A stretch of 64,000 nucleotides of DNA from Chitinophaga pinensis. GTDB taxonomy: Bacteria > Bacteroidota > Bacteroidia > UKL13-3. A program made the translations under genes and the position numbers. Under the pieces are notes generated by a model. The model had not been told where the DNA came from. It saw only the letters and a list, made by a program, of their open reading frames with translations, and ran no database searches. Position 1 is the stretch's first letter. Each line of letters begins with the position of its first letter. Location of the stretch: assembly GCA_945861965.1 (NCBI GenBank), contig CAMAWM010000006.1, forward strand, positions 1 through 64,000. Direction: 5' to 3'. Shown here piece by piece: positions 61,810 through 63,013 of this stretch.

Positions 61810-62838
61810 ATGACACCTAAAGAACAACAAATGGCTGACATATTAACCTCTGCCATTAAGGGAAATAATTTGATTGAGTTCAAATACGACAACGAATATA
61901 GGACTGTCGAACCTTTTTTATTTGGGGAGTTATATAATGTAAAACAATCATTTGAACAAGAGGGCAAATATGCATTAAGGGCTTGGCTTGTAAGGGGGTA
62001 TTCAAGTTTACCTGTCGACATTAGACCAGGTGATCGATGGAGAAAATATGAATTTAAAAGAATTATGGACATTACAATCTTAAATGAGACTTATAAAATT
62101 GTACGACCATTGTATAACCCCAATGACCAAGAATTTAAGAGAATTAATTATCGAATAAATGTGTATATTACTAAACTAGAGGCAAATATAGATGCCTATA
62201 TTAATGAAATAAATAAAACAAACTATTGCACTTTTGATGCTGATAAAATTCAAACAATTATTAAAGAATTAGTGCTTGCAAAAGATTTACCCCTTGAAAA
62301 AATGCAAGTCGCTTTTGATAAGTTGAAAAAAGAAACTGATGCCGACATACTTAAAATTGGTTCAGAATACGCAGGTGGTATTGTTATTTATTTGGATAAA
62401 ACAGGCAATCACGGTTTAGTATGTTCTGATGAATATTTTGGAGTAGCTATTTGGGGTGGTGATGGATTAATTGGTGCTAATGGTAATGGTATTGCTGATG
62501 GATCGGGTATGGCCAATACAAAAAAAATTGTAGAATTAGCAAGTTGGTATATTGAAAAAAGTTGGTTCAACACTACCAAAACACCCGCCCCAACCGCAGC
62601 ACGAATATGTTTAGAATCAAATTACAATAACTATAATGATTGGTACTTACCTACCAAAAAAGAGCTGAATTTAATATATCTAAACAAAGATAAGGTTGGC
62701 AGTTTTGCAAATTACAACTATTGGAGTTCCACCGAGTACAATAAATTCTACGCGTGGATACAGTACTTCAATAATGGCGAACAGAACTACGGCAGCAAGG
62801 ACAACGAATACAATGTTCGGGCTGTGAGGGCTTTTTAA
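61810..62838 (+). CDS. WYL-like N-terminal domain fused to DUF1566/C-type-lectin-like C-terminal domain; candidate DGR variable protein
   Basis: N-term LIEFKYDNEYRTVEPFLFGELYN...ALRAWLVRGYSS...YKIVRPLYNPNDQEFKRINYRI; C-term GGIVIYLDKTGNHGLVCSDE...DWYLPTKKELNLIYLNKDKVGSFANYNYWSSTEYNKFYAWIQYFNNGEQNYGSKDNEYNVRAVRAF. Confidence 0.83.
   Translation: MTPKEQQMADILTSAIKGNNLIEFKYDNEYRTVEPFLFGELYNVKQSFEQEGKYALRAWLVRGYSSLPVDIRPGDRWRKYEFKRIMDITILNETYKIVRPLYNPNDQEFKRINYRINVYITKLEANIDAYINEINKTNYCTFDADKIQTIIKELVLAKDLPLEKMQVAFDKLKKETDADILKIGSEYAGGIVIYLDKTGNHGLVCSDEYFGVAIWGGDGLIGANGNGIADGSGMANTKKIVELASWYIEKSWFNTTKTPAPTAARICLESNYNNYNDWYLPTKKELNLIYLNKDKVGSFANYNYWSSTEYNKFYAWIQYFNNGEQNYGSKDNEYNVRAVRAF
62713..62838 (+). 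other. Candidate DGR variable region with invariant 3' end (IMH-like)
   Basis: Asn/Tyr-rich C-terminus (8 N and 7 Y in the last 42 residues), mostly C-ending AAC/TAC codons unlike the AT-rich surroundings, fixed GTTCGGGCTGTGAGGGCTTTTTAA end. Confidence 0.55.
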
Positions 62839-62865
62839 AATTTATCAATTTAACTATTTTAAATA

Positions 62866-62878
62866 ACCGCGTAGCGGT
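62866..62878. repeat. Short GC-rich hairpin 27 nt after the variable-protein stop
   Basis: ACCGC-GTA-GCGGT. Confidence 0.6.
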
Positions 62879-63013
62879 CGAATTTTTGCAGGTAAAAAGA
62901 ACTACGATTATTGGCGACAAATTTTTGAACACGGAAAAACATTAGACAATGTTCCCGTTTTAGCAAAACCAATAAACTATGTTGAAATGATAAAACCTTT
63001 GACCGATGACTAA
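62867..63013 (+). pseudogene. Orphan C-terminal coding fragment without upstream start
   Basis: Open frame PRSGRIFAGKKNYDYWRQIFEHGKTLDNVPVLAKPINYVEMIKPLTDD* directly after in-frame TAA at 62864; no ATG near the 5' end. Confidence 0.5.

Follow-up and report, generated by a model that had tools for sequence, protein, structure and literature searches.

Fusion of a WYL-type domain with a probable DGR-type lectin in Chitinophaga pinensis, a candidate remote or orphaned DGR target

In a DGR, the reverse transcriptase (RT), acting with Avd, makes an error-prone copy of the template repeat (TR) RNA, the errors lying at adenines; this cDNA takes the place of the variable repeat (VR), guided by the IMH and helped by a stem-loop (PMC12875486, PMC7517822); the stem-loop is documented just 3' of the IMH (PMC12875486). 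Remote targets and incomplete DGR loci are documented (PMC7517822, PMC10907252), and DGR lectins on intracellular regulators or conflict proteins are known (PMC7517822, PMC10907252, PMC7159879), among others from cyanobacteria and Thiohalocapsa. The cyanobacterial remote variable proteins (PMC7517822) have a lectin end on other N-terminal domains and a 3' VR, are mostly predicted to be cytosolic and are encoded away from the DGR. In Thiohalocapsa PB-PSB1, whose DGR-diversified proteins are putative antigen sensors (PMC10907252), and in the FGS domains of ternary conflict systems (PMC7159879), a diversified lectin is fused to intracellular proteins of conflict type, some DGR loci are incomplete and targets lie in trans; these proteins carry NACHT/nSTAND1, vWA, kinase or TIR parts, and the available text does not mention a WYL target.

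A gene comparable to these targets is found in the window analysed here, i.e. 64,000 nt of the Chitinophaga pinensis assembly GCA_945861965.1 (contig CAMAWM010000006.1, positions 1-64,000, forward strand). It is a single intact frame (61810-62838, + strand) encoding 342 aa, with an N-terminal WYL-type domain, a helical linker and a C-terminal lectin domain (Table 1). We read it as probably a WYL-linker-lectin fusion, likely cytosolic, that carries a DGR variable repeat and is a remote or orphaned DGR target. Its architecture, predicted location and distance from a DGR match those of the cyanobacterial remote variable proteins, but it differs from them in the WYL-type N-terminus, the Bacteroidota host and the lack of a matching TR or RT; with the Thiohalocapsa and ternary conflict systems it shares the lectin on an apparently intracellular protein as well as the incomplete DGR setting.

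The draft genome (2.1 Mb, 61 contigs, 96% complete) is the only one representing its genus, and the gene has no close orthologues. In the family set, 35 out of 64 genomes have a match to the protein. The gene lies on an 80.7-kb contig with ordinary chromosomal genes on both flanks. Relatives of the whole 342-aa protein were not found in the IMG/VR search.

Table 1. Features of the WYL-lectin gene and its 3' flank (positions in the window)
Feature	Position	Strand	Basis or remark
WYL-type domain (fold level), residues 1-118	61810..62163	+	stand-alone gene in relatives; AF2; Foldseek; PADLOC
Helical linker, residues ~119-180	62164..62349	+	predicted helices 110-136, 144-157, 162-178; G039 homology
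C-type-lectin (Lcl_C/DUF1566) domain, residues ~183-342	62356..62835	+	PF07603; PDB 8q4e
Probable variable repeat of a DGR, YWSSTEYNKFYAWIQYFNNGEQNYGSKDNEYNVRAVR, with an uncertain 5' limit	62719..62829	+	NNC codon excess; IMG/VR TR/VR length and constant positions
IMH-like end of the variable repeat (..GTTCGGGCTGTGAGGGCTTTTT)	62808..62835	+	aligns with C39 and the G056 DGR
Hairpin ACCGC-GTA-GCGGT	62866..62878	+	just 3' of the stop codon, the DGR stem-loop position
Coding remnant (AGKKNYDYWRQIFEHGKTLDNVPVLAKPINYVEMIKPLTDD-stop)	62888..63013	+	translation; no start, unrelated; sits where Avd lies in related loci

The lectin end is assigned to Pfam family PF07603 (Lcl_C) over residues 262-340 (E=1.3e-13; 51.7 bits against a gathering cut-off of 34.9), and phrog_4245 (a PHROG with no function assigned) matches residues 124-342. 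The C-terminus quoted in a first-pass annotation of this DNA agrees exactly with the translation of the frame. The best PDB match of the lectin domain is 8q4e, the C-terminal domain of Legionella Lcl (E=1.7e-8, TMt 0.74), which it resembles in fold and in sequence. Legionella Lcl, however, is a surface collagen-like adhesin, whereas the 342-aa protein shows no evident signal peptide (judged by eye, and as the annotation had said) and no visible surface anchor. With no visible export signal, the protein probably has both its lectin end and its WYL end in the cytosol.

The annotation had also read the C-terminus as a DGR-type variable lectin, a reading now backed by the codon signature of the tail and by a DGR-type 3' flank with a hairpin. 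Pyrimidine-ending codons of the tail end in C 15 times and in T four times, whereas the remainder of the gene has 41 with C and 120 with T (P = 7.6e-6, Fisher test); out of the 2518 stretches of 34 codons in the window's long open frames, the tail is the richest in NNC. Its NNC fraction is 0.76; the fractions are 0.67 for the TR and 0.65 for the VR of a complete DGR in a relative (G056, see below) and 0.67 for a second lectin-gene end on contig C39 of the same genome, and all four exceed those of 12 other lectin tails of the family (0.13-0.56, none with P below 0.04). 17 TR/VR pairs from IMG/VR (37-residue) have the same length, spacing and constant positions as the tail, and in 16 of them the mismatches are virtually only at adenine. 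This likeness alone proves nothing, because the columns at which the window tail differs from the templates are also those at which lectin tails without DGR evidence (L030, L032 and L234) differ; since these control lectins behave alike, the column-wise comparison with IMG/VR templates was dropped as a test of DGR origin.

The 3' flank has the IMH and 3' inverted repeat of DGR targets in the order IMH-like end, A/T-rich spacer and hairpin (62808-62878), an arrangement common to C39 and G056. The flank is 81% identical over ~80 bp to C39:268-347 (E=1.9e-13), its sole other copy in the genome, and the same hairpin, with a GAA loop, is found on C39 (L015:328) and in the G056 DGR (L046). Among the loci compared, no lectin gene outside the Avd-linked and complete DGR loci has this flank and hairpin. 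For this short hairpin, the folding energy is only mildly unusual (z = -1.9). Neither a hairpin-plus-IMH pattern nor a stricter template pattern had a match in IMG/VR.

Contig C39 (L015, C39:1-1150) begins inside the second target gene, whose lectin end is followed by the hairpin and then by an Avd ORF. The Avd gene (C39:353-700; bAvd PF22296, E=3.7e-21) lies directly behind the flank and on a different contig from the WYL-lectin gene. Past Avd is a fragment fusion, which begins like a second four-helix protein (FEDIIAWQ) and runs into a coiled tail; it occupies the position of TR and RT in G056 and looks like the trace of a deletion of the template and RT. G056 itself (contig C320, L046) has a complete chromosomal DGR (target, hairpin, Avd, TR and RT), with 13 out of 13 core TR/VR mismatches at template adenines. 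This DGR resembles the window gene in its Lcl_C/DUF1566 target, its 3' flank and its GNA-loop hairpin, and its Avd is of the same family as that on C39; unlike the window gene, it has a complete Avd-TR-RT, and its target has a secretion-type N-terminus and no WYL fusion. Another relative, G027, has a DGR (on a contig also numbered C39 in that genome, L248) in which an RT frame lies between the repeats and all 22 TR/VR mismatches fall on template adenines. G046 (C38, L071) encodes a DGR-type RT (GVPIGNYLSQ); next to it are repeated proteins of the form EWKYYPWFD..GSRLCFKSAELARYAG, a type of DGR target that is phage-like.

A live DGR was not found in the C. pinensis assembly, which has neither a template nor a DGR RT. 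The A-biased template repeat that the first-pass annotation proposed to look for did not appear: in the own genome, BLASTN with the tail, as well as an adenine-mask pattern with three mismatches allowed, found only the tail itself. Phage-borne templates of other hosts are similar to the tail and not cognate. Likewise, neither a family search nor a search with the G056 DGR RT as query found a DGR RT in the 96%-complete genome. The sole RT there, on C10, was rejected as a DGR RT, given its retron-type motifs (GSPSSP, VTGL) and its best PADLOC matches, which are retron RTs. This retron-type RT (319 aa; L009, G000:C10:54445-58056, ORFs 44-1216 and 1393-2352) is encoded directly behind a 390-aa DnaB-like ATPase ORF and matches PADLOC RT-Protease_XI / RT-TIR_XII at E about 1e-85, without the fused effector of those types; it is possibly an undescribed retron arrangement.

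The first-pass annotation had proposed that the N-terminal ~120 aa are WYL-like, and both the predicted fold and weak HMM matches back this. The AlphaFold (AF2) model of residues 1-118 (pLDDT 80, pTM 0.76) resembles WYL regulators, and its best 16 Foldseek matches in the PDB are all of this kind (DriD, BrxR, PafBC, CapW), with E-values of 1.7e-3 to 2.4e-2, a probability of 1.00 and a TMq of about 0.5; in the model of the full-length protein the WYL part is of low confidence. The PADLOC WYL profile matches across residues 7-107 at E=0.02. Pfam has no WYL match in residues 1-118 of the query and matches a homologue by PF13280 at E=0.09; these sequence-profile scores fall under the curated cut-offs. 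The domain is thus established as WYL-type at the level of the predicted fold, and not at the level of family cut-offs. WYL regulators such as DriD, BrxR, PafBC and CapW join HTH and WCX parts to WYL. By comparison, WYL is joined to a lectin here and no HTH was detected; Pfam matches no HTH or WCX family in the protein.

Residues 1-118 are a separate domain, as stand-alone 118-aa ORFs in G013 and G027 share 83% aa and 87% DNA identity with it. Further stand-alone homologues are found in G039, G043 and G046 (50-64% identity), ~100-aa homologues in more distant Bacteroidota and ~31% matches in haloarchaeal plasmid records. G027 carries both a stand-alone WYL gene and its own DGR. In two relatives a conserved gene for 116 aa, of unknown family, immediately precedes the stand-alone WYL gene (L049:204-951, L050:7293-8041), and the two are possibly a two-gene unit. 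The DNA identity to the stand-alone gene (87%) begins just 5' of the ATG and stops at the stop codon of that gene; in the WYL-lectin gene this stop codon is lost and the frame continues. Residues 116-331 share 52% identity with the C-terminal end of a TPR-lectin protein of 655 aa encoded in G039, relatives of which are also present in G038 and G053. Among the genomes compared, the fusion is found only in C. pinensis. It would have arisen when a stand-alone WYL gene lost its stop and was joined in frame to the part of a TPR-lectin-type gene that encodes the linker and lectin. The TPR-lectin proteins themselves (L047, L048 and L056 in G039, G038 and G053, respectively) are a cytosolic-looking family starting with MSNI..PSFVFGYWRPW.EN; their TPR-like body is conserved and their C-terminal lectin very divergent, and they look like fast-evolving intracellular sensors, and no members were found in IMG/VR.

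It is very unlikely that two separate genes were joined only in the assembly, as a chimera. The genome is a draft, and the join coincides with the stop codon position of the stand-alone WYL gene; but the frame continues across it into a linker with homology to the linker of the TPR-lectin proteins, the WYL gene has no second copy in the genome, and a single 80.7-kb contig carries ordinary chromosomal genes on both sides. The C-terminal end may instead be an ordinary Lcl_C/DUF1566 tail that was never a DGR target; its likeness to DGR templates would then reflect the fold, and the motif YWSSTE..AW.Q.F..G.Q....K.....VRAVRAF would be the family's conserved core. We consider this rather unlikely: Lcl_C domains are common in the family (the 35 out of 64 genomes above), the tails of L030, L032 and L234 differ from templates in the same columns as the window tail and neither TR nor DGR RT was found in the genome, but the non-coding 3' flank and hairpin are shared, among the loci compared, only with Avd-linked and complete DGR loci, and the NNC excess is missing from other lectin tails.

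The gene could also be a live remote target, with TR and RT on a phage, a plasmid or an unassembled contig and the tail still diversified in trans, and we think this unlikely. DGR parts may be missing at contig ends, given a completeness of 96% and a contig C39 that opens within the second target gene; the WYL-lectin frame is intact, complete DGRs exist in the relatives G056 and G027, and diversification in trans is reported for Thiohalocapsa PB-PSB1 (PMC10907252). However, the fragment fusion past Avd on C39, at the TR/RT position of G056, looks like a deletion, and the window and C39 tails differ at many positions that are unlikely to be template adenines, so that two templates would be needed. 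The simplest reading is that the window gene is a target that lost its DGR, or one whose DGR is on an unassembled element; the Avd and the second target end on C39 look like survivors of a DGR from which the template/RT region was deleted.

If the gene is such a target, the last ~110 bp of the lectin gene would be a VR pasted from an adenine-erroneous copy of a template repeat, a replacement that would have used the IMH-like end together with the hairpin that follows the stop codon. The tail would have been diversified in the past, leaving one fixed binding surface in this genome. The lectin end would bind a changing ligand, phage or foreign, and binding may be relayed via the helical linker to the WYL end, whose Sm-like ligand- or nucleic-acid-binding fold would turn it into a regulatory or defence response. 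A stronger version, in which the protein is an intracellular sensor that is hypermutable, its WYL-fused lectin still being diversified in trans by a DGR element outside the draft, seems to us improbable; if true, a WYL-type regulator, of the kind that controls phage defence, would be directly coupled to anticipatory diversification of ligand recognition.

Searching the full-text literature for DGR plus WYL, we found no report of a WYL-DGR-lectin fusion (in the available text of PMC7159879, WYL occurs in the reference list only). The domain combination may thus be new, while the concepts of a DGR lectin on an intracellular regulator and of a remote target are already known. If our reading of the gene as a remote or orphaned target is right, an orphaned DGR target can be recognised by its 3' flank and codon signature once the template and RT are gone, and Bacteroidota and WYL would be added to the short list of intracellular DGR targets. 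DGR-type lectin recognition would then be joined to WYL, a fold that senses nucleic acids or ligands in several regulators of defence and DNA damage.
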